A stretch of 64,000 nt of DNA from Bryopsis sp. KO-2023 (lineage: Eukaryota > Chlorophyta > Ulvophyceae > Bryopsidales > Bryopsidaceae), in contig BSYQ01000001.1 in the NCBI GenBank assembly GCA_030272585.1, positions 10,183,001 through 10,247,000 on the forward strand, written 5' to 3'. A program made the translations under genes and the position numbers. The notes under the pieces were generated by a model. It did no database searches and was not told the DNA's origin. It worked only from the letters and a program-made list of their open reading frames with translations. How positions within the stretch are numbered: position 1 is the first letter of the stretch; each line of letters starts with the position of its first letter. Positions 3,658 to 21,698 of the stretch are shown one piece after another.

Positions 3658-5010
3658 TGGTTTCGGAGCCGGAAAGATAGGGAGAGTGGTAGGCCTGCTG
3701 TTGGCAGCCTTGATTTTAGTAGACGCGCAGAATGTGTTTACGCAAGGATATGTCGACGAAGTAAGGGAACTACAAGGTTTGCGCGAAGAGATCGACCGTC
3801 TGAGAGAATGGCGGGGTGAGGAGCGCGTGGCCTGGACGTCCGAGGTAGCAGAAGCGCGGGGGTCAGGAGTGAAAACTGGCAGTTCGCACTTCGTGAGCGA
3901 TGCTGCCGAAGCGAAAGCGAAGGAACGCGGAAAGAAAGGAGAGAGCGTTCTCGCGGGAATAGAGAAAAACGAGCCAGAGAAGAGCTCGAGTGCGTGGGCG
4001 TGGCTCTTCGGAGAAAAGCGTCAGAAGGTAGTGGTGGTGAACGGGTGCGTTTCTGTCACGTGCTGCTCGCGCATGATTATGGAATTTGCGCAGTCAGTCA
4101 TGACATTGGTGTTGGAGCATCTGGGTGCTTTTTTTGGGGATCCACTGAGATATATTAAGGAAGGATATGATTTAATAATGCCTGAACTGAGGGACAATTT
4201 GGGGATGCTATCCAAGGTGCTGGGATGGGTTTTTTTGATGATGGCCTTGAATGTGGTAGCTTACTTATATCTGTACCTTGCTAATCTGAAGAGGGTGGCT
4301 GCTGACTGTGCTGGGTGGGGTCTAAAACTACCATTGATGTTGGTAGTTTTTAAGGTTATCACTAAGCTGTGGGGTCTGATGATTAAGACGCTTAGGGTGC
4401 CAAAAATAGGGCATGGTAGTGCTGACAAGACGGCTGAGGAGATCCGGAATTTGAAAGTAGAATTGCAGGCACAAAGCAAGATGTTCAAAGAGATGATGGA
4501 AAATAATGGGGGCAGTCGGGCTGAGCGACAGTACCGTCCGACATGCGGTAACTGTGGGAGTAAGGCACATAGGACTGCCGACTGCACTGAACCACGGAGG
4601 TGCTTATGGTGCGGGAGTAAGGATCATGGGATTCAACGCTGCCCTAAGAAGGCACAAGGTGTGCCCAAGTCTTTCTTCCCTAAGGTGCATTTTGCGGGAA
4701 ATGCGGATCGAACCGGGGACCCCTCTGAGGCAAGGATGGAGAATGACACCACGCTGATGTACACACCCATTGTGCTTGGTGGGAGGGCAGTAAAGTCTTG
4801 TTTGATAGACACTGGAGCGGAGGTCAACATCTTATCGTCTGCGGAATGTGTGAGACACGGGATCCCATACGAGTCTGTTTCAGGCGAGCATATTATCGGA
4901 GTGAGTGGGGAGCAGAGCCCTATCCTGGGTCGCACGGTTCTAGAGGCAGTGGTAGGCCCTGCTGAACCAACCCCTCTCGAGTTCTTTGTGGTGAAAAATG
5001 TGACGAATAC
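3630..5010 (+). CDS. Gag-protease ORF of B, left part (interrupted by C)
   Basis: The frame is open from 3455; the first plausible ATG is 3630, inside the LTR, so the primer-binding site is translated. Visible segments: an early hydrophobic stretch (GLLLAALILVDAQ) like a signal anchor, a charged helical stretch (EVRELQGLREEIDRLREW), a second hydrophobic region near 4060-4130, and a long one at about 4220-4370 (VFLMMALNVVAYLYLYL). Two zinc knuckles follow at about 4540-4640 (CGNCGSKAHRTADC and CLWCGSKDHGIQRC), then a retropepsin with the catalytic triplet in CLIDTGAEVNIL near 4800. Zinc knuckles and protease are ordinary for gag-pro; several membrane segments before the knuckles are not. C interrupts the protease after VTNT; the continuation with LLGLPGL lies after 16550. 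Confidence 0.85.
3658..3670 (+). other. Primer-binding site of B
   Basis: TGGTTTCGGAGCC begins with TGG immediately after the LTR. The same core (TGGTTTCGGAGC) follows the 5' LTR of C, D and S. It would pair with a tRNA 3' end reading GCTCCGAAACCA; which tRNA that is cannot be told from the window. Confidence 0.8.
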
Positions 5011-5383
5011 TGTAAAGAGCCGTGGGGGTATAAGACAAAAGGAACTGTTACAAGCACGAACAACACGGTCTAAGGCGAGAAGCCTTAAGACTCGTCAACC
5101 GTTGACCCGGGTTCGAATCCCGTCAACGGTCCCAACCGTAACTGTCCCTAACTCTCTCACTCGTGACCCCGGACTACACCGTCCGGATACAGTCACACAT
5201 ACAGTCACCGTACCATCACACTATCACATCAGGTCACGTCACTGGTCGGACGGCTACATAACCGACCCAACCTCCGTAACCACCGTCGCCCACTGGATCA
5301 CTAGTACGACTGTCACTGTTCTCGCCACTGAGAGGTCTGGGGATCGAATCCCACCTCTCTCTCTATATATAAAAACTGTCACA
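5011..5383 (-). repeat. 3' LTR of C, containing tRNA-like sequence
   Basis: 373 bp with ends TGTAAAG...TGTCACA on the plus strand. On the strand opposite to the element's sense it carries GGTCTAAGGCGAGAAGCC followed by GGGTTCGAATCCC, a perfect B-box core in a hairpin with GTTGA/TCAAC arms. A second hairpin, GAGAGGT...ACCTCTC, encloses GGATCGAATCC near 5335. CTATATATA at about 5362-5370 is a candidate TATA region on either strand. Confidence 0.88.
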
Positions 5384-5704
5384 AGACTCCCCCTGACCTT
5401 AGAAATCTGGACCCCAGACCTAAGGTCACCAACTAAGCACATACAGACTCCAGCAAGAAAAGAATAGAGCACTCCCCCAAAAGCAAGAAGGAAAAATCCC
5501 AAAGACCTCCCAAAAAGCAAAAAGGAAAAGCCCCATCTGAAAGACCATCCCAAAGACAGTAGAAAAGAAAACAGCTGATCTGGTCTCAGCACTAACACCA
5601 TCTCCCCTGAACCCCCAACAATCATAGACTGAAATTCTTCTCTCATTCCCATGTCTCTTCAGAGATATCTCTCATTTACTCACTCATCAGCTCTTGAAGT
5701 CCTC

Positions 5705-8700
5705 TTATCTCCACTTCCAAACCTTCTTCTCCTGCTCTGTTGCTTCCAAGTGTTTTTGCTGAAAGTATGCTGCTGCAACATCTGGACAGTTTTCCAGGTT
5801 CCTGATAGGCTCCCAGCTATCATGGCCCCTGTCATATCCTTGCCATCTGATCAAGAATTCTCTTGAAATTCTCCCCCTGCCTCTGCCTCTCTTGACCTCT
5901 CTGTGATCCAAAAAGCTCTCCACATGGAACTCTGTGTTTCCATCTATGATTTCAGGTGGAACTGGATTGGGTTCCCTTTCTCCATACTGTTCATCCTGAT
6001 GGTATCTCCTGAGCTTTGAAATGTGGAACACTGGATGTAAACTCCACTGCTGAGGAACTTCCAATTCATAGGCCACTTGGCCCACTCTCTTCACAATCTT
6101 GAATGGTCCCACATATTTAGGTCCAAGCTTCTTGCATCTGTTCCCAGCCAGCTTCAAATCTTTAGTACTGAGGAGGACCATGTCATCCACCTTGAACTCA
6201 TCTACTCTTCTGTGCTTGTCTGCACTTTGCTTCTGTCTGTTTTGAGCTCTGGCAATGCATGTCTTGGCCACCTCTACATCCATCTTCAGATCATTCAAAA
6301 TTTCATCTACACCTCTGATGGGTGTCTCAATCTTCTTCCTCCCCAACAAGGCTGCAGGCACCAAGGGTTCTTCTCCAGAATTGAGATAGAATGGGCTATA
6401 CCCAGTGCTTGATTGCTTCCCTTGGTTATAAACAAATTCAGCTGCACTTAACTTCAGATCCCAGTCTGTTTGGGAATGGCTCACATATGCTCTTAGGCTC
6501 TCCTCCAGAATCCTGTTGAGCCTCTCTGTCTGGCCATCTGACTGTGGATGCCTGGCAGATGACATCTTCAAAGTAGTCCCCACCAGCTTCATTAATTCCT
6601 TCCACAGTTCTGATGTAAACCTGGCATCTCTGTCAGATACCAGGTCTTCAGGCATTCCATGATGCCTCCAGACTTCATCAAATAGCATCCTAGACATCCC
6701 AACAGCTCCAATGGTTCCTTCAGTTGCACAGAAATGGGACATCTTTGACATCCTGTCCACAAACACCACTATTGCATCCTTCCCCCTTGATGTCCTTGGT
6801 AATCCTGTGATGAGGTCCAAACTCACAGAGCTCCATCTTCTTGTGGGGATTTGCAATGGTTGTAAATCTCCAGCAATCTTCTGAGTAGATGATTTAGTCT
6901 TCTGGCACACAGGACAGCTCCTACAATACTGAGCCACCTCTTGAGACATCTTCTTCCACCAGAAGTTCTGCTGTAGTGTAGACAATGTTCTTTCCTTCCC
7001 TTTGTGTCCTCCAAGCAAACTGTCATGCCCTTCCTTCATCACCATTGCTTTCAGACTCTGTGGCACTACAATCTTCCCTTCCACAGTCTGTAGAACTCCA
7101 TCAGCAGACATCTTGAACACCCTTTGGGTCTGGATGTCAGAATCCAATCTCTTCAGGATTTCCTTGCAATGTACATCATTCTTCTGGGCATCAGCAACCT
7201 CTTGTGGACTCCCTTGAGCCACAGGTTCCATGGATGTTTTCTCCAGTGCATTGATTTGTTCATCAGATCTTGGCAATCCATTTACAGTACCCCATTTGGT
7301 ACCTCCTCTTGCATCACTTGGCATCACATCTGTTTTCAGTCTCTCAGGCAGCTTTCCAGTTTGGCATCCAGTAACCTTCACCAATCTGGAACCCAATGGC
7401 TCTCCTGGTTGTTCATCAAACACAAGATCCTGTGGATGATTCTCTCCCCAGGCCCCCAAGCCTTGGTACCTCTGAACTTTGCCATCATGCTTCACAAGAG
7501 TGTTGGTTGTGCCATTTGGTGCAGATGCCCTCAAATCTCCCCCTCCACTTCCAGAATCCCTTGGATCCACTGGATGTGGACATCTGGATAGGGCATCAGC
7601 CACCACATTATCTTTCCCAGGGATATGAACAGTTTGGAACCTGAATGGAGCTAGAAACTCCACCCATCTAGCTTGCCTCCTGCTCAAGTGTTGTTGAGAA
7701 TCCAGCCAAATTAATGACTGATTGTCTGTTCTGAGGACAAACTCTCTTCCTTCCAAATATGCTCTCCACTTCTTTAGGCAGTGGACAATCCCCAACAGCT
7801 CAATCTCATGGATGGGGTACCTTGTTTCAGCATCAGTCAGCTTATGGGATTCAAAAGCTACTGGATGCAAGCCATCTGGCCCCTCTTGCATCAATACTCC
7901 CCCCACTCCTGATTGACTGCCATCAGTGGCCACAATCCAGGGCCAATCTTCCCTGGGATGTATCAAAACAGGTGCTGAGCATAATGCATCCTTGAGATCT
8001 TCAAATGCCTGTTGTTCTTCTTTTCCCCATATGAACTGCTGATTCCCTTTGGTCAGGTTGGTCAATGCTGCAGCTTTCCCACTGAAATTGGCCACAAATC
8101 TCCTGTAGAAGCAGCACAATCCCAGGAAGCTCCTGACATCATGGACATTAGAGGGTGTAGGCCACTTCTTGATGGCATCCAGCTTATCAGCCATAGGCTG
8201 AACTCCTTGGTGAGTGACCCATGTTCCCAGAAAGTCCACTTCCTTTTTCCCTACTGCAGACTTGACCAGCTTTGCATACAGTTGATGTTTCCTGAGGGCC
8301 TCCAGCACCATCTTCATGTGTTTTGCATGCTCTTCAGGGGTGGATGAATAGATTAAGATGTCATCCAGGAAGACTTGAACAAACTTATCAATGTAGGGAG
8401 CCAGGATTTCATTCATCATGGACATGAAATGCCCAGGTGATCCACTCAGTCCCATTGGCATGACCAGAAATTCATACTGGCCATACTTTGTCCTGAAAGC
8501 TGTTTTTCCTTCCTCCCCTGGTGCCATCCTCAGTTGCCAAAATCCTGCCCTTAAGTCCACTTTGCTGAAGTACCTTGCATGGCTCAGCCTGTCCAGCATC
8601 TCATCCATTCTAGGAATGGGAAACTGAGTGACCTTTGTGGCTCTGTTCAGAGCTCTGTAGTCCACACAAAATCTCAATGCCCCTCCAGGTTTGGGGACAA

Positions 8701-9835
8701 AGAGTACAGGTGCTCCAAAATTGCTGTGGCTGGGTCTGATCATTCCTTTCTGTAGCAAATAGTCCAATTGCTCCTTCAGAGCATCTAATTCCTTTGGGGA
8801 CTGCTTATATAGTGGTCCAAAAACTGGTTTAGCATCATCTTTCAATGGGATCTTCATGTCCCATGGTCTGTGAGGTGGTAGATGATCAGGTAGGTCCATT
8901 GGGAAGACATCCTTGTATTCATTAAGGACATCCTTCAGCTCATGTAGTTCATCATCCAATCCATCGACCATGCCTTTGAAATTGGCATCTGTACCATCCT
9001 CTGTACCCTTGACTGCCTTTGCTTCACCAGGATTCCTGATTTGCTTGGCTGCATTGATTTCCCCTGATTCCTGGGGATCCTGAACTTTCCTGACCAGCAC
9101 CAAGTAAGCCTCTCCATCTCTGTTCTTCAAACATTTCTTAGCCTCACTGGCTGAGAGGAGGTTGATCTCTTGGGGATCCTGAACTGCTGCCACCTTTGGA
9201 TGGAAACCTTGTAGCTTGATTGGGACTTTGTTAGGCTTGCAGATGGTGATCACATGACTCCTCCAGTCAATGTGTGGATTGTGGTCCACCAGCCAGGCTT
9301 TTCCCAATATGATCTTATGTTTCAGGTTTGGCACCATCCAGAAGGTCCTCTTTATCACCCATGGACCCAATCTGAGTCTGATCAAGGCTTTCTCCTTTAG
9401 CAGGATTCTGGATCCATCAGCTAACTCCACTGATAGATGTTCATTTTTGATGATTTTCAATGCATTCTCTTGGGCAGTGATGACATCCATAAAATCTCCA
9501 GTTGCTCCACTGTCAATAAGACATTTGACTGTCTGTGTTTTCAATTTTCCAGGCACATATAGCAGGGTGGATCCCAGGTCTCCTTGACCCACTGATCCCA
9601 ATTTCCCTGTCACCATTTTCTCCTCTGTATCCTGGTTTGGTGTTGGACAATGTGTCTCAGTTGATGATGAGAATCTGACTTGCTTGTGAATCCCATGATT
9701 CCCTTTTGATTCCTCTTTTGCATGTATGGATTTCCATACTCCTGAGGCTGTGAGAACCTCTTTGGGCTTAGAGATGGATTCCTTGATTGTCTGTAGCTGT
9801 TTCTGCATCACCACTGATCCTTTTGGAGGGGAGGA
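5705..9835 (-). CDS. Pol polyprotein of chromovirus C (protease, RT, RNase H, integrase, chromodomain)
   Basis: About 1370 codons read leftward. In order: aspartic protease (CLIDSGATGDFMD, about residue 112); reverse transcriptase with FCVDYRALN, MPMGLSGSPG and the catalytic FLDDILIY (about residue 505); RNase H (ATDGSQSGVGGVL, then RTDNQSL); integrase with an H-x6-H and C-x2-C zinc site (CRSCPVCQK) and a D,D,35,E core (LDLITGLP, SDRDARFTS, SDGQTERLN); and a C-terminal chromodomain (FLIRWQGYDRGHDSWEP). The chromodomain defines chromoviruses and is known to direct integration to particular chromatin. The protein is the usual length and has no internal stop. Its N-terminal linker continues in frame beyond insertion E1a at 10309-10653. 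Translation depends on a -1 frameshift from gag. Confidence 0.95.
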   Translation of the reverse strand, partial: SSPPKGSVVMQKQLQTIKESISKPKEVLTASGVWKSIHAKEESKGNHGIHKQVRFSSSTETHCPTPNQDTEEKMVTGKLGSVGQGDLGSTLLYVPGKLKTQTVKCLIDSGATGDFMDVITAQENALKIIKNEHLSVELADGSRILLKEKALIRLRLGPWVIKRTFWMVPNLKHKIILGKAWLVDHNPHIDWRSHVITICKPNKVPIKLQGFHPKVAAVQDPQEINLLSASEAKKCLKNRDGEAYLVLVRKVQDPQESGEINAAKQIRNPGEAKAVKGTEDGTDANFKGMVDGLDDELHELKDVLNEYKDVFPMDLPDHLPPHRPWDMKIPLKDDAKPVFGPLYKQSPKELDALKEQLDYLLQKGMIRPSHSNFGAPVLFVPKPGGALRFCVDYRALNRATKVTQFPIPRMDEMLDRLSHARYFSKVDLRAGFWQLRMAPGEEGKTAFRTKYGQYEFLVMPMGLSGSPGHFMSMMNEILAPYIDKFVQVFLDDILIYSSTPEEHAKHMKMVLEALRKHQLYAKLVKSAVGKKEVDFLGTWVTHQGVQPMADKLDAIKKWPTPSNVHDVRSFLGLCCFYRRFVANFSGKAAALTNLTKGNQQFIWGKEEQQAFEDLKDALCSAPVLIHPREDWPWIVATDGSQSGVGGVLMQEGPDGLHPVAFESHKLTDAETRYPIHEIELLGIVHCLKKWRAYLEGREFVLRTDNQSLIWLDSQQHLSRRQARWVEFLAPFRFQTVHIPGKDNVVADALSRCPHPVDPRDSGSGGGDLRASAPNGTTNTLVKHDGKVQRYQGLGAWGENHPQDLVFDEQPGEPLGSRLVKVTGCQTGKLPERLKTDVMPSDARGGTKWGTVNGLPRSDEQINALEKTSMEPVAQGSPQEVADAQKNDVHCKEILKRLDSDIQTQRVFKMSADGVLQTVEGKIVVPQSLKAMVMKEGHDSLLGGHKGKERTLSTLQQNFWWKKMSQEVAQYCRSCPVCQKTKSSTQKIAGDLQPLQIPTRRWSSVSLDLITGLPRTSRGKDAIVVFVDRMSKMSHFCATEGTIGAVGMSRMLFDEVWRHHGMPEDLVSDRDARFTSELWKELMKLVGTTLKMSSARHPQSDGQTERLNRILEESLRAYVSHSQTDWDLKLSAAEFVYNQGKQSSTGYSPFYLNSGEEPLVPAALLGRKKIETPIRGVDEILNDLKMDVEVAKTCIARAQNRQKQSADKHRRVDEFKVDDMVLLSTKDLKLAGNRCKKLGPKYVGPFKIVKRVGQVAYELEVPQQWSLHPVFHISKLRRYHQDEQYGEREPNPVPPEIIDGNTEFHVESFLDHREVKRGRGRGRISREFLIRWQGYDRGHDSWEPIRNLENCPDVAAAYFQQKHLEATEQEKKVWKWR

Positions 9836-10300
9836 CAGAGATAGGACTTGGGCCAAATTTTTGGTCCGACTCCGGTCCGGTCCGGTTACGGTCGGGTTAC
9901 GGTCACCGTACTACGGCCGTAACTCCGTACCGTAACCGGAGTAATATGTTGTTTTTACGGTACGGAACAGGTACGGTATAACTACGGTAGGCCCTAAATC
10001 ACCGTGAAGTAGCGTGGTTCAGTGCTAAAGCGTTAGGCTGCAGTCAGTAGGGTCGCGGGTTCGAATCCCCCTGGGTTCCTTTGGAATCGCGGGACCCTGC
10101 GGGGGTCACTTTCTACGGTTTACGGTTGTTACGGCCGTTACGGTCGTTACGGTCCGGTACGGAGCGGTACGGAGTGGTACGGTGCTACGGTTACGGCCGT
10201 AAAAGTACGATTTTCTGACGAAAATTGTACTCCGGTTACGGTCCGGTTACGGTGGTTACGGTCCGGTTACGGTGACCGTAACCGTAAAGTCCTATCTCTG
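9836..10300 (+). mobile_element. E1 copy a: hAT-like MITE with a tRNA-like core
   Basis: 465 bp with 14-bp terminal inverted repeats CAGAGATAGGACTT, flanked by a perfect 8-bp TSD GGGGAGGA (9828-9835 and 10301-10308). The arms are arrays of CGGTTACGG, CGGTCCGG and GTACGG variants in inverted arrangement. The core at about 10010-10080 reads like a tRNA gene: GTAGCGTGGTTCAGTG as a D-arm or A-box region and GGGTTCGAATCCCC as a perfect B box. It is followed by a GACCC-TGCG-GGGGTC hairpin. I could not fold an anticodon stem, so it is tRNA-like, not a tRNA gene. There is no coding capacity; an 8-bp TSD with CAG ends suggests mobilisation by a hAT transposase (inference). Confidence 0.9.
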
Positions 10301-10308
10301 GGGGAGGA

Positions 10309-10653
10309 CTGTAGACTGTCCTTTGTTATCCCTTCCATCTCAGGGGTTTTCTGTATGGATTGTCCCAACACTGTGGGGATGGATCCCTTAGCTTTGTTGC
10401 TGACCGGATCCCCTTTGCCAGCCCTCGAATCTGAGGTACTGGATCTGGCAAGCTTCCCTCCCCCAAACCTTCCCAAATAAGATGAAGATGTCTTACATCT
10501 GGATCCTGCCTTTGCCTGAGCACCATTCTCAGGAGATCCTTTAGATGTTCCCCCTTCAACCTTATCGACCACTAACACCTTCCCATCACTGACATTCCTC
10601 TGATTTCCTTGTAATCCTTCCTTGTCTTGAGAACCATACTGACGACTTTCCGA
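10309..10653 (-). CDS. Linker between gag and protease of C (pol frame)
   Basis: This segment of the C pol frame lies between insertions E1a and E2. It encodes a hydrophilic, Ser/Gly/Lys-rich linker (for example KVEGGTSKGSPENGAQAK). Disregarding E1a and one TSD it runs in frame into the main pol ORF at SSPPKG; on the other side of E2 it is continuous with the pol-frame sequence that overlaps the end of gag. Confidence 0.8.
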
Positions 10654-11616
10654 CAGAGCTGGGCAGTAACCCGTTTGTAACGCACCGTACCGTAACGCAC
10701 AGGGTCGGTACAGTAACGTGTCCGATCGGTGCACGCACCGACCGGACGTTACAACACGTTGCACACGTTACAACAACGACCCAGTCGGTACAACAACGTC
10801 CAAGTACGGTACAACAACGATCCGACGTTACTGTAACGCCAAAGCGTTGTTGTAACGCAGTACGTTATCAGTAACGTCTACACCGGCTGCTATAACGTCC
10901 GCACCGAGGCAAGACGTTACAACAACGATCGGTTGCGTTACGTGTAACGATAACACGTTACAACAACGGCCAGGTCGGTACAACAACGTAATGACGTTGC
11001 AGTAACGTCATGCGGATGACGTACAAAGTGACCCCCGCAGGGTCCCCAGAACCCAAGGGAACCGAGTGGGATTCGAACACCGTACCGCACGATGCCGAAT
11101 CATCTACACTGAGCGCTAAGCCAAGTGGACCACGATGATTTTGTGGCTGTTGCGATCATATACCTTAATCTGTTTGTAATTCTGTGAAATTAGGGTATAT
11201 TATTGCAACAACCACAAAATCATCGTGGTCCACTTGGCTTAGCGCTCAGTGTAGATGATTCGGCACCGTGCGGTACGGTGTTCGAATCCCACTCGGTTCC
11301 CTTGGGTTCTGGGGACCCTGCGGGGGTCACTTTGTACGTCATCCGCATGACGTTACTGCAACGTCATTACGTTGTTGTACCGAACGTCGTACTGTCTGTG
11401 TCGGTACAACAACGTCAGTGACACGTTGCAACAACGACCCGATGTTGGGTGCCGGTCGTTGGCGATAACGTATCGTACCGACCCAGTACCGATGTTGTAC
11501 CGTACCGTAAAAAACATTCGCACCGTACCGTACCGTACCGACCCCTTACGGTACGGTACGGTACGTAACGTGTCGTACCGTACCGTAGGGGGTCGTTACG
11601 GTACTGCCCAGCTCTG
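10654..11616 (-). mobile_element. E2: foldback MITE with two inverted tRNA-like cores
   Basis: 963 bp with 15-bp terminal inverted repeats CAGAGCTGGGCAGTA and a perfect 8-bp TSD CTTTCCGA (10646-10653 and 11617-11624). The arms are rich in GTTACAACAACG and TACCGTACCG words. Two almost identical tRNA-like cores face apart around an AT-rich centre (about 11150-11210): the plus-strand copy has TGGCTTAGCGCTCAGTG and GTGTTCGAATCCC, and its mirror lies at about 11060-11140. Each core is followed outward by GACCCTGCGGGGGTC, the same hairpin as in E1. The inner inverted repeats would let one strand fold into a hairpin several hundred bases long. No ORF. Confidence 0.9.
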
Positions 11617-11624
11617 CTTTCCGA

Positions 11625-12436
11625 CGACATTTCCGACATCACATTTGCATGTCCAGGTTTCTTTGACGCCCCTCCTGGCCTGGTCCAGGGAGGCCTTACT
11701 CGTTTCCCGATGACTTGTTTTGGCCACCCTTCTTCTTCGATCGACATTCTCTCGCGAAATGCCCGAACTTTCCGCAGTTATGACATTTCCCTTTCTTGGG
11801 TGACGACTGGTTCCACTTCTCTCCTGACACTGCGCCAATCTCCATCTTATCGTCATACTGCCGGTTTTGTTTTGGGTACCAAGGAGTCTGCTCGTTTCCT
11901 GCTCGGCCTGCAGCCCGGTCTGCTTGCAGTGCCAACTGAACAGCCTCGTCGAATGTCTGAGGACGGTTTAAGAAGACGTGAGATTTTATCTTCGCCTGTA
12001 GGCTGTGCGTGAAGAGATGTATTTTGTCTTCCGTTGCCATAGTTGGAGTCTTGATCAAGAGTTTGGAAAACAGAGAGATGTGCTCCCTGAGCGTGCCCTT
12101 CTTGTGCGTTAGCCTGAATAGCTGGTCTCTGGCCGTCTCTGCCTTGTCAAAGGGGTCGAAGTATTCGATAAGCTCCTGCCCCAGCACATCCCAGCTCGCC
12201 ATCACCATCGGGTTTGACGCTTTCTTCACCGTGTACCACTCTTGTGCAGCTCCTCTCAACACCGTTGACGCCAGCAGTGCCCGTTTTCCAACCGGACACC
12301 CGGACGCCACAAAATAGGTTTCCATGCTCTCCACCCAGTCTGAAGCTCCTTCTCCGGTTTTTCCGAAGAACTGAGGAGGATTCCCCAGCCGTATAGGCGC
12401 GAAGTTCCACGCATCAGGTATCGACGGCCCTGCAGC
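11625..12436 (-). CDS. Gag of chromovirus C, C-terminal part
   Basis: Frame with stop TAA at 11696-11698. It holds the Ty3/gypsy gag (retrotrans_gag) core around ASDWVESMETYF, RGAAQEWY and LTHKKGTLREH, then one CCHC zinc knuckle, CHNCGKFGHFAREC. The apparent ATG at 12439 is an artefact: its CAT comes from the terminal repeat of E3. The true frame continues upstream across E3 into 13470-14297, joining at SAAG/PSIPDAW. Pol overlaps this end in the -1 frame. Confidence 0.9.
11671..11708 (-). promoter_or_regulatory. Candidate -1 frameshift site between gag and pol of C
   Basis: On the minus strand the heptamer G GGA AAC (complement of 11702-11708) lies in gag frame two codons before the TAA stop. 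Eight bases further on is a hairpin with arms complementary to 11671-11678 and 11685-11693, one bulge and a 6-base loop. Shifting back one base enters exactly the frame that runs into protease and RT. GGGAAAC is a known simian retrovirus frameshift heptamer. Function is inferred from sequence only. Confidence 0.75.
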
Positions 12437-13461
12437 CATACTATGGATCTGATCGATCTTCCAAAACTAAGGTAATATTAGGTCACAGCAGTAATCCGAC
12501 ATCATAACTGCGTCCTAGAACCGATTTTAGCAATGATCGGTTTTTTTTTTTTTTTTTTTCATTTTTGGCTGATCGGTGATCGTGATCGTGATCGGCCGAT
12601 CAAATGTTGATCGTGCTCTTGATCGTCCGATCACATGTTGATCGTGATCGTGATCGGTTCGCCGATCACCGATCTGATCGGTTGTTCCGATCACGATCCC
12701 GATCACGATCAAGCGCCGCGACCTGTCGGCACTTCATCGGCTGACCTTGATCGGTGTGATCGTGATCGGCCGATCGTGATCGGACCTGCATCCGATCATG
12801 ATCGGTATTGATCATTTGATCGATGAATTGATCGGTCTCGCGAAAATGCCGACAAGTCACCACCCGCAGGTGTTTCTGAGGTGGAAGGATTCGAACCGGG
12901 TACCTAACGGATTAGAAGCATACTCACTAACGCTTGGACCACTCGGAGCCACGGTTTGTTGGTCATCCGTGTCATTATATACGTGATCTGTCAGTCCGAC
13001 AAACTGAGGTATATATAGCCACGGATGACCTAGTAACCGTGGCTCCGAGTGGTCCAAGCGTTAATGCGTTTGTCTCTAGTCTGTTAGGTCTCAGGTTCGA
13101 ATCCCTGCACCCCAGAAACACCTGCGGGTGGTGATTTCTCGGCATTTGTGATGGACCGATCAATTGACCGATCATGATCCGATCTAATCGGCATCACCGA
13201 TCCCGATCCCGACCCCGATCAAGCGCTGCGATCTGTCGGCACTTGATCGGCTGACGTTGATCGGTCTGATCGTGATCGGCCGATCAAAGTTGGCCGATTA
13301 AATCGGTCATCCGATCAGATTGGTGATCGGCCGATCTCCATCGATGATCGGCCAAACCGATTTGATCGGCGATCGATCTGATCGGAAAAACCCGATCACG
13401 ATTTAATCGGTCGGACCGATCAATCCACGACCGATTAGATCGTGATCGGATCCATAGTATG
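12437..13461 (-). mobile_element. E3: foldback MITE of GATCGG arrays with two inverted tRNA-like cores
   Basis: 1025 bp with 13-bp terminal inverted repeats CATACTATGGATC and a perfect 8-bp TSD CCTGCAGC (12429-12436 and 13462-13469). Both arms are dense arrays of GATCGG and GATCGTGATCGG, a mostly self-complementary word. The middle (12868-13130) has two inverted tRNA-like cores around an AT-rich loop. The plus copy reads GTGGCTCCGAGTGGTCCAAG, close to the D-arm of class II (Leu/Ser) tRNAs, then CAGGTTCGAATCCC. Each ends in a CACC-TGCG-GGTG hairpin. It interrupts the gag of C. Confidence 0.9.
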
Positions 13462-13469
13462 CCTGCAGC

Positions 13470-14297
13470 GGAGCCTCCACTCGTTGCTCCCGCCGTTGTT
13501 CTTGCTTGCCGTATCCTTTCTTCCATTTCGTGTTTTGCTGCCAGTAACGATGCCTGCAGTTCGAGCTTCTGGTTCGCCATTTGTTCCTGCAGGTCCAATA
13601 GTTTCTTGTGCAGGCCTGAGCCTGCTTCCAGTGTATGATCTGCAGCAGACTGCGCCGTCGACTGCTGTTCCGTAAGTTCCGTCATCGTTGCCAGCACCGT
13701 GGTAAACTTCGTATCCGTCTCCGTCCGAAACTCCATCGCCTGGGTTTCTCGTAGGGTTTGGCTCAGCGTCAGTTCGTCCAACTTCTGCATAAGCTTCTGG
13801 TGGTTCGCTTGGCTTTCGAGGCTCACTTTTGACACCTTCTGTTCCAGTTTCGTGCCTCCCTGTCGAACTTTCAGCATGTCCGCGCGGATCTCGCCCGCCG
13901 ATTTTTCCAACAACTCCAGTTTTCCGGTAGTCTCGACATGTCTGGTTTCGTTCGTGGTTCCAAGCTCGGCTACTTTCTCCTTTACAGCTTTGACTTTGTC
14001 CTGCAACCCGGCTCCAGCTTCATCAAGCTTGCCGACCGCTTTCGACAGTTTCTGTAAGGACTCCCCATGCTTATTTGCCAGTTTTTCGACAGCCAAGCCT
14101 GCCTTGTGAACCTTTGCGAACTCGTCGCCATGCTTATTCACCAGCTTTTCCACGTTCTGTCCAGCTTTGTGGATGTTCGCGATTTCTGTCTTTATCTCCA
14201 ACCCTTCAAGTTCCCCTAGACGGTCTTCCAGTGCTTTACACCCCGTCTTCAGTGCTGCTACTGACTCCAGCACGTTGTTCAAGTCTTCAGCCGACAT
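13470..14297 (-). CDS. Gag of chromovirus C, N-terminal coiled-coil part
   Basis: ATG at 14297 followed by some 275 codons of heptad-like, Lys/Glu/Leu-rich sequence (VAALKTGCKALEDRLGELEG, LEQKVSKVSLESQANHQKL) predicted to form a long coiled coil. It ends in AGATSGGSAAG at the E3 insertion and continues in frame in the gag core at 12436. Similar coiled-coil N-termini occur in gypsy gag proteins, where they support particle assembly. The stop at 13284 lies inside E3 and is not native. Confidence 0.85.
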
Positions 14298-14343
14298 TTC
14301 CGGTTCTCCCCCCGGTCTTCACGATGAACCCAATATCACACAG

Positions 14344-14808
14344 CAGAGATAGGACTTGGGCCAAATTTTTGGTCCGACTCCGGTCCGGTCCGGTTACGGT
14401 CGGGTTACGGTCACCGTACTACGGCCGTAACTCCGTACCGTAACCGGAGTAATATGTTGTTTTTACGGTACGGAACAGGTACGGTATAACTACGGTAGGC
14501 CCTAAATCACCGTGAAGTAGCGTGGTTCAGTGCTAAAGCGTTAGGCTGCAGTCAGTAGGGTCGCGGGTTCGAATCCCCCTGGGTTCCTTTGGAATCGCGG
14601 GACCCTGCGGGGGTCACTTTCTACGGTTTACGGTTGTTACGGCCGTTACGGTCGTTACGGTCCGGTACGGAGCGGTACGGAGTGGTACGGTGCTACGGTT
14701 ACGGCCGTAAAAGTACGATTTTCTGACGAAAATTGTACTCCGGTTACGGTCCGGTTACGGTGGTTACGGTCCGGTTACGGTGACCGTAACCGTAAAGTCC
14801 TATCTCTG
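14344..14808 (+). mobile_element. E1 copy b
   Basis: 465 bp, identical by eye to E1 copy a, with a perfect 8-bp TSD TCACACAG (14336-14343 and 14809-14816). It sits in the leader of C between the primer-binding site and the gag ATG. The two copies fix the ends of the element independently. Confidence 0.93.
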
Positions 14809-14850
14809 TCACACAGGCCGCCCGATCGTTTGGGTGTAGCCAGTACACTT

Positions 14851-14863
14851 CGCTCCGAAACCA
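14851..14863 (-). other. Primer-binding site of C
   Basis: On the minus strand it reads TGGTTTCGGAGCG, two bases after the CA end of the C 5' LTR. It has the same core as in B, D and S. Confidence 0.8.
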
Positions 14864-14865
14864 CT

Positions 14866-15238
14866 TGTAAAGAGCCGTGGGGGTATAAGACAAAAGGAAC
14901 TTTTACAAGCACGAACAACACGGTCTAAGGCGAGAAGCCTTAAGACTCGTCAACCGTTGACCCGGGTTCGAATCCCGTCAACGGTCCCAACCGTAACTGT
15001 CCCTAACTCTCTCACTCGTGACCCCGGACTACACCGTCCGGATACAGTCACACATACAGTCACCGTACCATCACACTATCACATCAGGTCACGTCACTGG
15101 TCGGACGGCTACATAACCGACCCAACCTCCGTAACCACCGTCGCCCACTGGATCACTAGTACGACTGTCACTGTTCTCGCCACTGAGAGGTCTGGGGATC
15201 GAATCCCACCTCTCTCTCTATATATAAAAACTGTCACA
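14866..15238 (-). repeat. 5' LTR of C
   Basis: Second 373-bp LTR, including the tRNA-like hairpin at about 14930-14990. It differs from the 3' copy by one base by eye. E4 lies two bases beyond its outer end. Confidence 0.88.
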
Positions 15239-15240
15239 AA

Positions 15241-16542
15241 CAGACGTGGGCGCCGGCAAGTTTTAAAGGACCGGACCGGACCGGAAAACCTGTCTTGGAC
15301 CGGATTTGACCTTTCTTAGACAGGTCAAACCGGTCTGGAAAGGTCAAATCCGGTCTAAGAAAGGTCAAATCCGGTCTAGTAAAGAACACCTTTCTTAGAC
15401 CGGATTTGACCTTTCCAGACCGGTCTGACCTGTCCAGACAGGTTGTCGCCTGTCTGGACAGGTCATACTCGTGTGACCTGTTTTAGACCGGTGTGACCCT
15501 GTTTTAGACCGGTGTGAGGCCTAGTGTGACCTGTTTTAGACCGGCTCCAGGTCGGTCTGGACAGGTGGGCTGCCTGTCCAGACCGACCTGGAGCCTGTCT
15601 AGAACAGGTCGCACAATTAAGCACATAACTGAGAATCAATCAGTTGGGAAGTGATTGAATTAATTAAAGCACCAAGTAATACTATTATATATATTTTTAG
15701 TGGATGAATAACGTGAGCCAAGCTCACCAGCCACCGACTGGAGGGAGTCGGTCGACTCTGGGAGGACTCGAACTCGGGTTGGCTAAGTCCGAGTCGAGAG
15801 CACTACAAGGTAGCGGACCCCACCATAGGGACGCTCAAATTGGGTCCGCTACCTTTAAGTACCCGTTATTTTCCATTACAAAAAGTAGGTACTTAAAGGT
15901 AGCGGACCCCTTATGAGCGTCCCTATGGTGGGGTCCGCTACCTTGTAGTGCTCTCGACTCGGACTTAGCCAACCCGAGTTCGAGTCCTCCCAGAGTCGAC
16001 CGACTCCCTCCAGTCGGTGGCTGGTGAGCTTGGCTCACGTCATTCATGCAATGAAAATACATGTAACAATATTATTTGTTGTTTAATTAATTAACTCAGT
16101 TCCCAGTCAATTGATACACAATTGGCACGCTAAAAGTGCTTAATTGTGTGACCTGTTCTAGACAGGCGCCAGGTCGGTCTGGACAGGCAGCCCACCTGTC
16201 CAGACCGACCTGGAGCCGGTCTAAAACAGGAGAACAACCCTGTCAAGACAGGGTCGTTCCGGTTTTAGACAGGTCACATCGCCGGTCTAATAAAGGCGAA
16301 ATGTGGGTGTGACCTGTCTAAAAACGGAAAATCTGTCAGAAAACCGGTCCAGATTTCTGCAGATTTCCGAGGTTGACTGGACCGGAGTGGACAGGACCGG
16401 ACAGGTCACAACCTGTCCGGTCTTGCAAGGACCGGCGTTTTTTCGTTGGACCGGACAGGACCGGACAGGTCAGCCGGTCCATGGACAGGTTGGACCGGAC
16501 CGGACCGGTTTTTCGCTGCCGGTCCGGTCGGGCCCAGGTCTG
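15241..16542 (+). mobile_element. E4: foldback MITE of ACCGGTC/CAGGTC arrays with two inverted tRNA-like cores
   Basis: 1302 bp with 11-bp, one-mismatch terminal repeats CAGACgTGGGC and a perfect 8-bp TSD GTCACAAA (15233-15240 and 16543-16550). The arms are arrays of GGACCGG, AGACCGGTCTGG and CCTGTCCAGAC words. The inner inverted repeat (about 15705-16050) has two tRNA-like cores with CCGAGTTCGAGTCC, followed outward by ACCGACT-loop-AGTCGGT and GAGC-ttg-GCTC hairpins, around an AT-rich loop at about 15860-15890. The TSD straddles the end of the C LTR and its flank, so E4 arrived after C. Confidence 0.9.
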
Positions 16543-16548
16543 GTCACA

Positions 16549-16677
16549 AATACACTGCTGGGGCTGCCTGGCCTTCGCGCCTGCAAGCTAACTGTGGACT
16601 GCGAGCGTGGAGAGTTGAAGTGTGATGCTACTGGGAGGCGTGTGAAAGTAATGGTCACCCAGAAGCAAAAAAACTGA
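16549..16677 (+). CDS. Gag-protease of B, last part
   Basis: Continues the protease of B after the C/E4 insertion. The frame reads VTNTLLGLPGLRACK..., where LLGLPGL corresponds to the conserved ILGxDFL-like segment that closes the retropepsin fold. It ends with VTQKQKN and TGA at 16675-16677. The VTNT of the left part recurs here partly through the TSD AATAC. Confidence 0.85.
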   Translation, partial: NTLLGLPGLRACKLTVDCERGELKCDATGRRVKVMVTQKQKN

Positions 16678-16700
16678 GTGGCCCCCCTTTCGACAGAAAG
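16668..16700 (+). promoter_or_regulatory. -1 ribosomal frameshift site of B (slippery heptamer plus hairpin)
   Basis: A AAA AAC at 16668-16674 is in gag-pro frame (caA AAA AAC TGA) and is followed at once by the stop. After a 7-base spacer comes a perfect 10-bp hairpin (16682-16691 with 16696-16705) with loop GACA and mostly C/G pairs. A shift of -1 reads AAA AAA CTG AGT and enters the pol ORF without interruption. Heptamer, spacer and stem all fit the classical retroviral design. Confidence 0.88.
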
Positions 16701-19372
16701 GGGGGGTCAGTGGAGCTGATCGTCAACTGGGAACCTGAGAAAGGAAGTGGGTTTTCGAAGAAAGAGGATTGCGTACAGGTGCTGAGTGGAAAGGCGCGAT
16801 TTATTCCGCCCCACACTTGGACTAAATTGTATTTACCTTTTTCGATAACTGTGCTGGGTACTGTGACTTTAGTCAGTGCGATACACCGAGCTTGTGTTGT
16901 TTCTGGTGTGTCGTCGACGCCTGGGGGGCAAGTGCGTGTCGATGTTTACAATGCATCTGATGAGGTTCTAACCTTCACACCCACTACGCCAGTGATTAAC
17001 ATTTTCGGAGTAAGTGAGTTACGGATCACCGGAGCGAAAGAGACTGTGAGGAGAGCAAATCAGTGCTCAGTGGAAATCACTGGGGAATCATTGAAGAAAG
17101 AAATCTGTGAGACATTCCCAATTGTCTTTGATCACACAACACATGAGATTACTGAGAAAATGGCTGAGATGGCAGTGAGAAGAAATGAAGTGCCTTTCCC
17201 TGAGCCACCTGAGTTAGGGGTTCGTACTCAATACTGCCTATCGAGCGCAGCTGGAAGGAGCACAGTTCAGTCAGTGCTAGAGGATTACGAAAAAAAGGGA
17301 TATCTGAGATCAGCCTCAAAGTCAGAATCCGTTTACCTGTCACCACTACTACCCGTGCTGAAGCCTAACGGAAAAGTCAGACTCACCAACGACTACAGAA
17401 AATTAAACGGATATTTTCGAACTGGTGGGACACCCGTCACATCTCACTCTGATTCATGGACCAAATTATGGGAGATCGATCCGGAGTGGCGTTACTTTGC
17501 GAAAGTGGATCTTAAGGATGCTTTTTTTAGTATCCCACTATCCGAGGAGATACACAGATATTTCGGGTTCACGTTCGGAGAGCGTACTTTCGTGTGGAAA
17601 AGACTTCCCCAGGGCTTTTTGTGGGCCTCAACTCTATTTTCGGAGAGGGCGGCTGAGGTGGTGGCTGGCCTGGCGGTACAGTTTGCCGATGATTTACTGG
17701 TGGGCGCCAGGTCACTTCAAGAACTAAGGGAAAAGCTGCTGCTACTATTTAAGCGGCTGGCTATTTTTGGAATGAAAGCAAATGAAGCGAAAATTGAGTG
17801 GCTGACCCAGAGTGTGACCTTCCTTGGATACGAGATCACACCTGGCGGCTGGTCTCTAAAAAACTACCTCGATGAAAGGGAGAGTGATATCGGGGAGATC
17901 TCCTCGTCAAAAGATCTACAGAGGATTATCGGGATTTTGTCATACTGCCGGAGGGCAATACCCGATATGGAACGTAGGGTGTCACCTCTACGTGCCCATG
18001 TTGCACAAAATAAGATCAAACGTTACACTAAGGAGGAGTGGAAAAAGGCGGAAACTGATGCGAAACTGATTTTCCGTGAGGCGTTACGCGATCAGCTGCG
18101 ATTGGCGGTGCCTGGGACGCAGGTCAACCGTTTTGTGTTGGAGACGGACTGGTCCAGTGGGTTCGCAGGGTACCTCCTTTTCGCGCAGGTGTCAGGGGTG
18201 GACGGTCGAAAGGAGGTGCTCGTAGACGTCGGCAGCTGCGTGCTGCGAGAGAAGACGTCATCCTTTCTCGGCGAGTTTCGCGCAGTGGTCTGGGCCTGCA
18301 AGCGCACCAAACGCTATCGAGGCGACGTAGAGATGACCATTCGCACAGATAACTTGGCCCTGTGTGAGAAGCTGAAGGTCGGCGGGCTGGGTGCGACGGA
18401 CGTCAGGGAGATGCGATTGTGGGGGTGGATGATGGCTAATGAGAGCAGTTTCGCGACAGAATTTGTGCCAGGATCGGAGAACGTCGGAGCGGATCTTTTG
18501 TCGAGACCAGTGCGTGCGAATGTGCTGCGTAAGGAGAACTCTCTGTCAGAGGCGGAGTGGAAATTAATTCATGAGGGACATCCCTCAGTGAGGGGTACGA
18601 TGATGCGGGCGACTGCTTATGGATTGGGCGTCAGAAAGAGTGAGATCGAAAGTCGCGTGGCCAAATGCAGGTCCTGCCAAGCTTTCGCTCCTCTGCATTC
18701 AAGGTCTCCGCTGAAATCGGTATTAGATGCAACGTTCCCTGGCGAGTTTGTATCAATCGATTTTATTGGAGCTCTACCAAAATCAGGGAGCTTTCAATTT
18801 GTTTTTGTCATTAGTGACAGTCTGAGCAGGCTGATGCAAGCTACAGCAGTGACTGCTGCTACATCTGCCCATGCTATCAAAGAGCTGAAGTTGTGGATTG
18901 CTCAACATGGGAGTTTTCAGGGCATTATGTGTGACAACGCAACTGCGTTCACTAGTCGCACTTTTCGTGAATGGACTCGTTCCCTAAATGTCAAGCTGGT
19001 ATACGCCCCAGCGTACCATCACTGGTGCAATGGTGCTGTGGAACGAGCAAACCGAAAGCTGATCGAGAGGATGAGGCGTCTATTAATAGAAGAAGGGCAC
19101 TGGAGGTGGCCTACAGTGGTAAAGCGAGCTCAGTCTGCATGCAATTCGATGATATGCTCAGTCACCGGTTTCACACCTCACGAGATATGGTTTAAAACTC
19201 GTCGTGAGTGGGAGGCAGCTCGAGGTGAAATGGCCAACCGTCGTGAGCAAGCGAACAAAAAGATGAAGGGGCAGCTGAGCATGTGGAAGTTGGGAGACCA
19301 AGTATGGGTTTTCGACATCGTGACGAACCCCTGTCTGCGCGGGAAGTTTCAGCCGCTTTGGGAAGGGCCTGG
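16678..19372 (+). CDS. Pol of B: retrovirus-like RT, RNase H, integrase
   Basis: Reached by frameshift; numbering here starts at the GTG at 16710. Reverse transcriptase: DLKDAFFSI, KRLPQGFLWAS and the catalytic FADDLL (about residue 325), then VTFLGYEI. RNase H: ETDWSSGFAGYL (about 476), FLGEFRAVVW and IRTDNLAL. Integrase: H-x2-H and C-x2-C zinc site (IHEGH, CRSCQ), then D,D,35,E (SIDFIGALP, CDNATAF, NGAVERANR). LPQGF with an Ala-Asp-Asp active site is closer to retroviral RTs than to the YxDD of Ty3 chromoviruses such as C. The apparent end at 19400 is inside insertion D; the native frame resumes at 21058. Confidence 0.92.
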
Positions 19373-21052
19373 TGTCACGCGACGGAAAAGTTGCCCATGA
19401 GAGAAAGTTACAATAGTCCCAATACAAGCCCTTTAAGTACTCGAATCCAATAGGAACTATGCGCCAGCTAGATGAAGTTCCACTGTGAACTGCACCTAGA
19501 AGGAAACTGACACACTGTGAACTCTTTCTACACGTGTTGGAACTCCTACTGGCGCCCTGGAGCTACCCAGAAGCCAACCACGTATCCCCATAACGTCCCT
19601 AATCAAGCCTATAAGAGTGACACGTAACAATTCCCTTCTCTTATAGAAATTTGTCCTCAAATTTCTAAGGCTTCCTGCCAATCCTTTCACCAAAATAAAA
19701 TAAAACCACCACTTTTCTTTCACAACCACTATACTCTCTCTCTTTCATAGTTCAAACCAAATCAAGGAAACAATCGAACAAGAGAAATATTACCAGTTAG
19801 AAAGAACCATAGAAAACCATGAAAAACCACTCAGTTACAGGCCTTCTTTTTGATCAGGTCCCGCCGTAGGACCTACCAAGTCGGTTCTCATCATCCTCCA
19901 CTCAATTCACATAGTAACAAGGATCCGTGGTTCCGACTATGCACCGTAGCATGTCACCAAACCTTCCATCCCTTGGTAGCACTGTATAACAACCAACCCA
20001 CTCAATCTCTCCTTGGGATTCCGTTGCACTTGTAGTGCTCACCACTTCTCTCTTTATGTTCATTCCTTGCACGCATCTCTCACAGAACTCTTAAAACAAT
20101 CAAAATTTCGCATGTTCGTCCCGGCTTATTTATCCATCGTCGCCCCAGGTCCACGACTACAACAATATCAAACAACCACTCGTCTTACTGCGCCTCTCGC
20201 GTCTTACTGCGTCAAATACAACCAACCGTCTCTGCACATACGGCTTCTTCCCGATTTCTTTAATGTCGCTCTAGGCCCACGACCACAATAACATCAAACA
20301 TTCCAAACAACCAAACAACCAAAACAACCAAAACAACCAATAACGTTTCGCCTCACTGCACTACACAGCATGCGCACACACTGTACCATACACTGCTCTT
20401 TTCCCAATTTCTTTTCTTCTGTCGTCCAAGGCACACGACACAAACGTTGCTTAGGTGCCCCATAACACCTCTGACTCATCCTCATACACACAACACGAGC
20501 GCAACGCCGAACTTTCTCGAGCTTCCGTCACGGAGTATCACTTCCAGAAAAATAGCTGCACCTTCAAACAGCTGTAACTTTCCGCCTACTTCTCCGATGA
20601 ACTCCAAACACGATGCGTTGAACGCGGAATTTTCTCCTCTTGCCGTTAGCCACCTCAAATGTTTCATTCCGTGACGTATTAACGACGTTATCGCACTTTT
20701 CCTCCCAGCGCTCATCTCCCATCTCCTTCCACCATCTCTTTAAGGAAGGGTCCGCCGAGGACGTCGTCCAAAGGATCGACCGCTCCGAAACCAATTGTCA
20801 CGCGACGGAAAAGTTGCCCATGAGAGAAAGTTACAATAGTCCCAATACAAGCCCTTTAAGTACTCGAATCCAATAGGAACTATGCGCCAGCTAGATGAAG
20901 TTCCACTGTGAACTGCACCTAGAAGGAAACTGACACACTGTGAACTCTTTCTACACGTGTTGGAACTCCTACTGGCGCCCTGGAGCTACCCAGAAGCCAA
21001 CCACGTATCCCCATAACGTCCCTAATCAAGCCTATAAGAGTGACACGTAACA
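19373..21052 (-). mobile_element. Non-autonomous small LTR element D (TRIM-like) in pol of B
   Basis: 1680 bp with 257-bp LTRs at 19373-19629 and 20796-21052, identical by eye, with TGT...ACA ends. TSD CCTGG (19368-19372 and 21053-21057). The complement of 20781-20793 is TGGTTTCGGAGCG, a primer-binding site two bases from the right LTR, so the element points left; CTATAAGAGAAGGG next to the left LTR is a good polypurine tract. The 1166-bp interior has no gag or pol. It must borrow enzymes from elements using the same primer, with C a natural candidate by spacing (inference). Confidence 0.9.
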
Positions 21053-21057
21053 CCTGG

Positions 21058-21159
21058 GGTAATTGCTGAGGAGATTTCACAGAGCCTGTGGGCAGTCAAT
21101 ATGCCAAATGGTACGAGGGTAGTAATACATTCTGATTTCATGAAAAAATATCTATAGGT
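21058..21159 (+). CDS. C-terminus of B pol
   Basis: In frame with the pol ORF when D and one TSD are disregarded. It adds the end of the post-integrase domain (for example VIAEEISQSLWAVN, then HSDFMKKYL and TAG at 21157-21159). This shows that D cut off only the last 34 or so codons. Confidence 0.8.
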
Positions 21160-21211
21160 TTTGCTTTTCGGTGGATTTCCCTTTTCATTGTTTTCGGAGT
21201 TTTTGTGCACA

Positions 21212-21238
21212 GTGAAAATTGGGGCGGGGATGGGCACA
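21212..21238 (+). other. Polypurine tract of B
   Basis: GTGAAAATTGGGGCGGGGAT and a few more bases, purine-rich, lie immediately before the 3' LTR, as expected for the plus-strand primer. Confidence 0.75.
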
Positions 21239-21693
21239 TGTTGTGAAAAGGGCAATTAACAGGAAAAGGGATATTACTGTTGTGAATATGAGTAGTGGCA
21301 GTGGGAACGGTTATTAGGGGGAATGGGAGGGATTCGAACAGAGAGAGTGAACGAAATATGAACGGTCAGTCATAGGCGCAATGTAACGGCGCGGCAGTTA
21401 TAACTGTAAGCTGCGCCGTTTCATTTGCCGTTTCAGCGAAAGAGTTTTGGCGGGGACGACGAACGGTCGCGCGCCAGAAACTCGCAAACAGTGAAAAGAA
21501 CAGAGTTGTATCCTTGTAAACGAACACATTTACAGCGAGTCGCTAGAACAAAAGCTTGTACTCGAGAGGTGTTCCAACCGTTAAGAGTGAAACGACGTCG
21601 AGTGGACGTCCGTAACGGAAAGCAATCCCAGAGTGTGTCGACTGACGAGAGACGTCAGCGAAAGATGTTCGGAGTTATGAGAGCAACACAACA
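21239..21693 (+). repeat. 3' LTR of element B
   Basis: 455 bp, TGTTGTG...CACAACA. It matches the 5' LTR except for a 12-bp gap beside the CGACGA repeat. It is followed not by the host flank but by TGGTT (21694-21698) and then element S. Confidence 0.9.
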
Positions 21694-21698
21694 TGGTT

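Follow-up and report, generated by a model that had tools for sequence, protein, structure and literature searches.

Three hAT-type MITE families of Bryopsis sp. KO-2023 probably share a tRNA-derived Pol III promoter-like unit

Results

At least three hAT MITE families in the genome of Bryopsis sp. KO-2023 probably carry one tRNA-derived Pol III promoter unit, which has been spread by DNA transposition. The analysed stretch of contig BSYQ01000001.1, 64,000 nucleotides long and called the window below, harbors two copies of E1 and one copy each of E2, E3 and E4. Observed here are the MITE structure of these elements, their autonomous partners, a core common to E1, E2 and E3, a regular layout of promoter boxes within this core and the fact that the partners do not contain the unit. 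The structure and origin proposed for E1–E4 can be put forward with high confidence: they would be non-autonomous elements that have kept nothing but the ends from an autonomous hAT parent of their own, whose transposase moves them in trans.

Elements in the window and their autonomous partners

All five elements lie on the forward strand and are flanked by perfect 8-bp TSDs. The two copies of E1 (9836–10300, TSD GGGGAGGA; 14344–14808, TSD TCACACAG) are identical over 465 bp and contain a single core, which reads to the right. E2 (10654–11616, 963 bp, TSD CTTTCCGA) and E3 (12437–13461, 1025 bp, TSD CCTGCAGC) hold two cores each, and E4 (15241–16542, 1302 bp, TSD GTCACAAA) is a foldback element with an inverted core pair. 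The TIRs read from the sequence comprise 14 bp in E1, 15 bp in E2 and 13 bp in E3, while that of E4 is imperfect (about 11/13). As predicted, the arms of E1–E4 are built of repeated short words. With a size of 465–1302 bp, high copy number, TIRs and no hAT gene inside, the four families conform to the definition of MITEs.

Each family could be paired with its own autonomous hAT element of 5.2–7.0 kb, which spans a match to PF05699 and displays matching ends and an 8-bp TSD of its own. The part of the transposase matched is the C-terminal dimerisation domain. The partner of E1 is element B2 (5240 bp, contig C12, TSD ATGGTGGC), with end identities of 86.6% over 142 bp and 89.6% over 48 bp; the homology ends at E1 position 142. 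E2 is matched by element D (5257 bp, TSD CCCATATG; 298 bp at 95.3% and 278 bp at 83.5%), E3 by element A (6215 bp, TSD CCTGTACT; 286 bp at 79.4% and 268 bp at 79.5%) and E4 by element F (6990 bp, TSD TTGGAGAG; 195 bp at 77.4% and 267 bp at 82.0%). The search for a hAT transposase with matching ends, which the original prediction had called for, was thus successful for all four families, and together with the 8-bp TSDs these partners bear out the assignment of E1–E4 to the hAT-type MITEs. In a second autonomous relative of E1, element B on contig C4, the left end was not reached, and B2 was used as partner. Element C, a hAT copy of 406 aa, was rejected due to its differing ends (CAGTGTTGTG).

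Copies elsewhere in the genome

An exact 32-mer of the E1 left end was found at 245 places, with none for the backwards control. A first look gave 517 candidate copies of E2, 336 of E3 and 298 of E4, of which 40 were scored per family; the scored E3 copies are 98–100% identical. Perfect 8-bp TSDs flank E1 at all 30 genomic loci and E2 at 23 of 30. At the remaining seven E2 loci (L033, L037, L038, L045, L053, L057 and L059) no perfect repeat adjoins the ends, rather than a clear TSD of some other length; among the E1 loci, no other length was seen. Two of the loci in this set, L009 and L010, represent one insertion which was duplicated along with its surroundings. For E3 and E4, of which genomic copies were also located, the TSD evidence comes from the window copies.

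Copies without a core had been named as evidence against the prediction. None was present among 29 aligned E2 copies, or among the seven fetched of 31 discordant E1 places (contigs C1–C3). These seven, considered as candidates for solo cores, each proved to be a TIR element that contains a B box, their TSDs being read by eye. Their position within TIR elements and the fixed 8-bp TSD adjoining the TIRs also led to rejection of E1 and E2 as SINEs.

Box layout of the E1, E2 and E3 cores

In all five cores of E1–E3 a TATA motif is followed after 38–40 nt by an A box and after a further 43–44 nt by a B box. The E1 core (approximately 9978–10125, forward strand) displays TATA at 9977–9980, the A box at 10015–10025, the B box at 10058–10068 and, following it, the hairpin GGGACCCTGCGGGGGTCAC. 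E2 and E3 contain divergent pairs, which read outward. The left core arm of E2 (10975–11169, reverse strand) reads left, with the B box at 11069–11079, the A box at 11113–11123 and TATA at 11159–11162, and its right core arm (11189–11383, forward strand) reads right, with TATA at 11196–11199, the A box at 11235–11245 and the B box at 11279–11289. Correspondingly, the left arm of E3 (12817–12982, reverse strand) reads left from TATA at 12978–12981 over the A box at 12931–12941 to the B box at 12887–12897, and the right arm (13009–13174, forward strand) reads right from TATA at 13010–13013 over the A box at 13050–13060 to the B box at 13094–13104. Among the first 100 E3 core matches listed, 44 such pairs are spaced exactly 108 bp. 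For 46 of the first 100 E2 core matches listed, part of which were examined, there is no partner at 113 bp.

Judged by its sequence, this layout is that of a type-2 Pol III promoter, in line with the predicted Pol III-type core. It agrees with the description of type-2 promoters, including a plant TATA at -30/-24, in PMC10137851. The triple of TATA, A box and B box did not occur in the four partners (23.7 kb), in the rest of the window (60 kb) or in 4,000 shuffles (1,000 each of E1, E2, E3 and E4); A and B boxes alone arose in 2, 0, 4 and 1 per 1,000 shuffles of E1, E2, E3 and E4, respectively.

A core with a tRNA-type B box had been claimed for every family. This applies to E1–E3, where the A box and a previously unmentioned TATA are present as well, but not to E4. 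The inverted core pair of E4 (15667–16084) contains the B-like motif GAGTTCGAGTCC at about 15977–15987 on the forward and about 15764–15774 on the reverse strand, whereas an A box and TATA were not found in register. Its best alignment to tRNA genes reaches z 2.0, with 11 of 200 shuffles as good, and the core is unlike those of E1–E3. A fifth hAT MITE, E5, has no B box. E4 and E5 have spread without a recognisable promoter unit.

Common origin of the cores and relation to tRNA

The original prediction assumed that each family carries its own tRNA-like core. Contrary to this view, the cores of E1, E2 and E3 are homologous, with z values of 17.8 and 19.6 between E1 and E2, 13.4 and 10.0 between E1 and E3, and 3.3 to 10.6 between E2 and E3. 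Beyond the boxes, the homology covers a hairpin (CCTGCGGG) that follows the B box; between E1 and E2 it includes 59 nt at 86%. A diverged relative of the core is situated in another repeat outside the MITEs; it misses the strict box test with a B box score below 10/11.

The E1–E3 cores can be aligned to tRNA genes of the same genome with best z values of 7.1 to 9.2, the E2 and E3 cores matching tRNA-Leu best and the E1 versions tRNA-Gly or tRNA-Lys. The cores are not tRNA genes: ARAGORN predicted none in the window, Rfam gave no tRNA match for the region, the E1 core or the right E3 core, and the T stem retains 2–4 of 5 pairs, versus 5 of 5 in the seven tRNA genes of L009. The proposed check for a tRNA-like fold was therefore negative, the cores having kept the promoter boxes without the tRNA fold.

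Discussion

Possible role of the unit

In E1–E3, a tRNA-derived type-2 Pol III unit consisting of TATA, A box, B box and small hairpin would replace the transposase gene, with homologous versions placed singly in E1 and as divergent outward pairs in E2 and E3. The unit could stem from a dispersed tRNA-like repeat or have passed from MITE to MITE by template switching, and would now be copied via DNA transposition and not by retroposition. It might recruit TFIIIC and Pol III, transcripts might run outward into the arms, and transcription or occupancy might keep a copy open to the transposase. Some Pol III or TFIIIC occupancy at the E1–E3 cores is slightly favored, while a benefit of the unit for transposition is doubtful. 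Similarly speculative is the wider notion of an exchangeable Pol III promoter module, taken up by distinct hAT MITE families whose success depends on Pol III, with Pol III/TFIIIC occupancy keeping copies open or feeding outward transcription of transposase-binding arms.

Alternatively, the core could be a mere passenger, a defunct fragment of a tRNA-like or SINE-like repeat that came to lie in deletion derivatives and was carried along, with inherited and non-functional boxes. Such a reading, although rather unlikely, fits the diversity among 29 E2 copies: the cores (0.042) are less variable than the right arm (0.085) but no better conserved than the left (0.015), and the evidence for selection on them is weak or contrary. 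Moreover, the TATA 12-mers of the E2 cores (52% and 38% intact) rank with the most poorly conserved windows of the core, and the A and B boxes reach the 74th–89th percentile of conservation only. The success of E4 and E5 without the unit points in the same direction, and a precedent exists in MER6/MER6A, a mariner MITE whose body derives from a V-SINE (PMC6887750). Passenger status is, however, opposed by a TATA-A-B spacing kept within 2 nt in three hAT families while T stem and remainder diverged, and by the E1 subfamilies, which hold the core at 88–92% identity while the right arm drops to 65–68%.

Very unlikely is a function of the long inverted cores as DNA or RNA hairpins, in excision, replication or as small-RNA precursors, to which the boxes would be incidental. 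Core arms of 195–197 nt with a complementarity of 97% in E2 and 93% in E4 would suit this function. An identity as miRNA precursors was rejected, all Rfam matches to such families scoring far below the gathering thresholds; matches of this kind are to be expected from long hairpins and fit the foldback reading. However, E1, for which the highest number of exact end copies was counted, contains a single core and no long internal foldback, and the spacing of A box, B box and TATA is unexpected for a hairpin-only function. That each hAT family took its own tRNA is extremely unlikely, since the homology of E1–E3 past the boxes outweighs the differing best tRNA matches and the deviating E4.

Several observations tell against the favored reading of a shared promoter unit, among them the E2 diversity, the spread of E4 and E5, the box test missed by the relative outside the MITEs and the E2 core matches that lack a partner at 113 bp. 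In addition, a clear Pol III terminator is absent downstream of most cores. TTTT is missing from 48 of 56 E2 arms; selection for readthrough was rejected as an explanation, since this lies within shuffle expectation (P of none 0.63 and 0.10).

Relation to known systems

Like E1–E3, MER6/MER6A represents a retroposon-like piece spread by DNA transposition, but section 2.4 of PMC6887750 describes MER6 without a tRNA-related head, whereas E1–E3 took the tRNA-related promoter itself, in three hAT families and as pairs in two of them. With tRNA-derived SINEs, E1–E3 share tRNA-derived A and B boxes and a degraded tRNA fold; they differ in their TIRs, fixed 8-bp TSDs and lack of a visible tail, and move as DNA transposons. 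Two worlds of small repeats are thereby linked, a SINE-type promoter being spread by cut-and-paste transposition. A search of open-licence PMC articles brought up no description of a Pol III unit within hAT MITEs.

Three families of one genome, each with an identified parent, nearly identical young copies and a common insert, allow a direct test of whether a Pol III promoter alters the mobility of MITEs. They bear on the open question why certain deletion derivatives give rise to large MITE families while others fail to do so.

In their 8-bp TSDs, short TIRs, subterminal repeats and dependence on end-matched autonomous hAT elements, E1–E3 correspond to other MITEs of the hAT superfamily (Ac-like). 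They differ in an interior formed by a Pol III-type unit, which is not found in the partner and is common to three families. Ac-like hATs prefer nTnnnnAn as TSD. A similar bias is seen for E1 and E2, with a pyrimidine at TSD position 2 in 23/30 and 21/23 and a purine at position 7 in 26/30 and 20/23 loci, respectively.

Autonomous hAT partners of the MITE families

The search for a hAT dimerisation domain yielded 150 matches above the cut-off among the 150 scored of 185 candidates. By reading outward from such matches, four autonomous elements were defined, each flanked by an 8-bp target site duplication (TSD) of its own: A (reverse complement of C1:1601700-1610600, 6215 bp), B2 (C12:510500-519000, 5240 bp), D (C11:4383800-4392000, 5257 bp) and F (C7:1229500-1239500, 6990 bp). 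Their ends match those of the MITE families E3, E1, E2 and E4, respectively, so that the proposed search for a hAT element with matching ends was successful for each family and every one of E1-E4 is paired with its own autonomous hAT. In blastn comparisons with A-D, E1, E2 and E3 were each linked to one partner only; extension of D brought an additional match for E1, to a separate E1-type copy lying next to D. In all four families the homology to the partner ends short of the core, the tRNA-like internal unit, covering positions 1-142 of E1, 1-298 and 693-963 of E2, 87-370 and 761-1025 of E3, and 1-191 and 1042-1302 of E4.

The GTTACAACAACG words of the ends of D recur in its transposase gene region (L074, about 2330-2510 and 4075-4240), where they are apparently located in introns. 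Element A (L061/L069) seems to contain another gene, located 3' of its transposase and in the opposite orientation. For the 788-aa transposase itself, the scored candidates include just two relatives at E <= 0.001. A fifth hAT MITE, E5 (L055 2742-3123 and L057 743-1164), displays 8-bp TSDs and CTGTGCAG-type arms and lacks a B box. Its ends also recur at the edge of another hAT copy that is defined at one end.

Copies and retention of the core

Perfect 8-bp TSDs, as originally claimed, flank 30 of 30 fetched E1 loci and 23 of 30 E2 loci genome-wide; for E3 and E4 they are known from the window copies. The E1 loci were taken from the best matches and are therefore young, the best 40 scored places being 100% identical as printed. 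Among the scored matches listed, copies are 89-100% (E2, over the main match), 98-100% (E3) and 87-100% (E4) identical.

The whole genome holds 245 exact E1 left ends and 219 exact E1 core 32-mers. On contigs C1-C3, the exact core lies at +222 in 53 of 73 left ends, leaving 31 unmatched places (20 left ends and 11 cores); all seven of those fetched proved to be elements of the E1 type, each with a B box. Among the 29 aligned E2 copies, every one retains at least one B box, and 54 of 58 boxes are kept overall. Copies devoid of the core, named beforehand as evidence against the original prediction, were thus not encountered among the seven fetched E1 places and the 29 aligned E2 copies. Within the first 100 of 214 E3-core matches, 44 divergent pairs with a spacing of 108 bp account for 88, one wide pair accounts for two, and 10 are single. 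The first 100 of 144 E2-core matches comprise 25 pairs at 113 bp (50 matches), two wide pairs (four) and 46 single matches, some of which sit in full-length E2 copies.

A promoter-like core common to E1-E3

Alignment indicates that one core is common to several families, with z of 17.8 and 19.6 for E1-E2, 13.4 and 10.0 for E1-E3, and 3.3 to 10.6 for E2-E3, and not a separate core per family as initially supposed. The E4 core reaches z of -0.6 to 3.6 against any other core. In all five cores of E1-E3 (one in E1, two each in E2 and E3), TATA is followed after 38 to 40 nt by an A box and after a further 43 to 44 nt by a B box. As described in PMC10137851, 11 bp separate the start from box A in the type-2 layout, box B follows 30-40 nt downstream, and plant tRNA genes carry TATA at -30/-24; the E1-E3 cores fit both this spacing and this TATA position. 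In E1-E3 the predicted tRNA-type B box is thus accompanied by an A box and TATA; E4 fails the box test even when the TATA requirement is dropped. The full test for TATA, A and B boxes found no match in the partners A, B2, D and F (23.7 kb), in the other 60,030 bases of the window or in 1,000 dinucleotide shuffles each of E1, E2, E3 and E4; without TATA, 2 (E1), 0 (E2), 4 (E3) and 1 (E4) per 1,000 shuffles passed. In a looser test for the B box alone, all four families were positive in 0 of 500 shuffles and three families in 1 of 500.

Inside a repeat of about 910 bp (L015 1-910, L059 3092-3956), found at 15 long genomic places (at least 840 bp aligned), one unit is related to the E2 core (82% over 149 nt) and is accompanied by three further, different tRNA-like units. 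The unit therefore exists outside E1-E4, and the repeat is a possible source of it. The relative fails the strict box test, its B box being too diverged. After this dispersed repeat comes a stretch of 190 nt that shows 99% identity in most copies among the matches listed.

Relation to tRNA genes

Identity of the core with a tRNA gene is ruled out: ARAGORN and Rfam at gathering scores returned nothing in the whole window, permissive Rfam scans gave no tRNA match, and the T stem is degraded, with 2 to 4 of 5 pairs kept in the cores, compared with all five in the seven tRNA genes examined from the cluster L009. Derivation from a tRNA is a different matter. Aligned to the tRNA genes of this genome, the E1-E3 cores reach best z of 7.1 to 9.2 and, judged by sequence, are tRNA-derived though not tRNAs, whereas the E4 core, with a best z of only 2.0, drops out of this part of the prediction.

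In L009, the A+B test is positive at five places, one of which is an E1 core; TATA accompanies this core only and thus belongs to the cores, not to the tRNA genes of the cluster. At L009 and L010 (C5:5729968 and C5:5733255), an E1 insertion interrupts a tRNA-Leu(AAG) gene of the cluster, and the cluster unit has been duplicated as a whole with its insertion. Since tRNA matches on C5 have a period of about 3.2 kb, these genes are tandemly arrayed.

Possible role of the core

Because E2 and E3 have cores directed away from the middle of the element, and E1 has one directed toward the right end, Pol III transcripts from them would run across the arms. The favoured, putative role is that occupancy by TFIIIC or Pol III would keep E1-E3 copies accessible. 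In favour of selection on the core, E1 subfamilies are 88-92% identical in the core versus 65-68% in the right arm in six of nine compared copies. Against it count the diversity of the E2 core (0.042, exceeding 0.015 in the left arm), the poor conservation of TATA among E2 copies and A and B boxes of E2 only moderately above median conservation. Most E2 arms lack TTTT, though not significantly so. MER6, according to PMC6887750, is a known example of a MITE containing part of a SINE; no report of hAT MITEs with a common tRNA-derived promoter unit turned up in the open-licence literature searched.

Genomic setting

The window (G000:C1:10183001-10247000) belongs to an assembly of 91.09 Mb in 28 contigs, and CCCTAAA repeats are found at the start of contig C1. 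At 42394-43998 it encodes a folylpolyglutamate synthase, whose best named relatives are from Ostreobium (47%) and Bryopsis (46%), followed by other green algae and plants. These features point to a chlorophyte, perhaps an ulvophyte, as the source. A minus-strand Ty3-type retrotransposon (about 5011-15239), with two nearly identical repeats of 374 nt (5011-5384 and 14866-15239), is nested in a plus-strand one (3192-21699; repeats at 3192-3663 and 21239-21699). The gag region of the inner element holds E1, E2, E3 and the second E1, and E4 is situated at the edge of its LTR, which itself contains two B-box-like units and one TATA.
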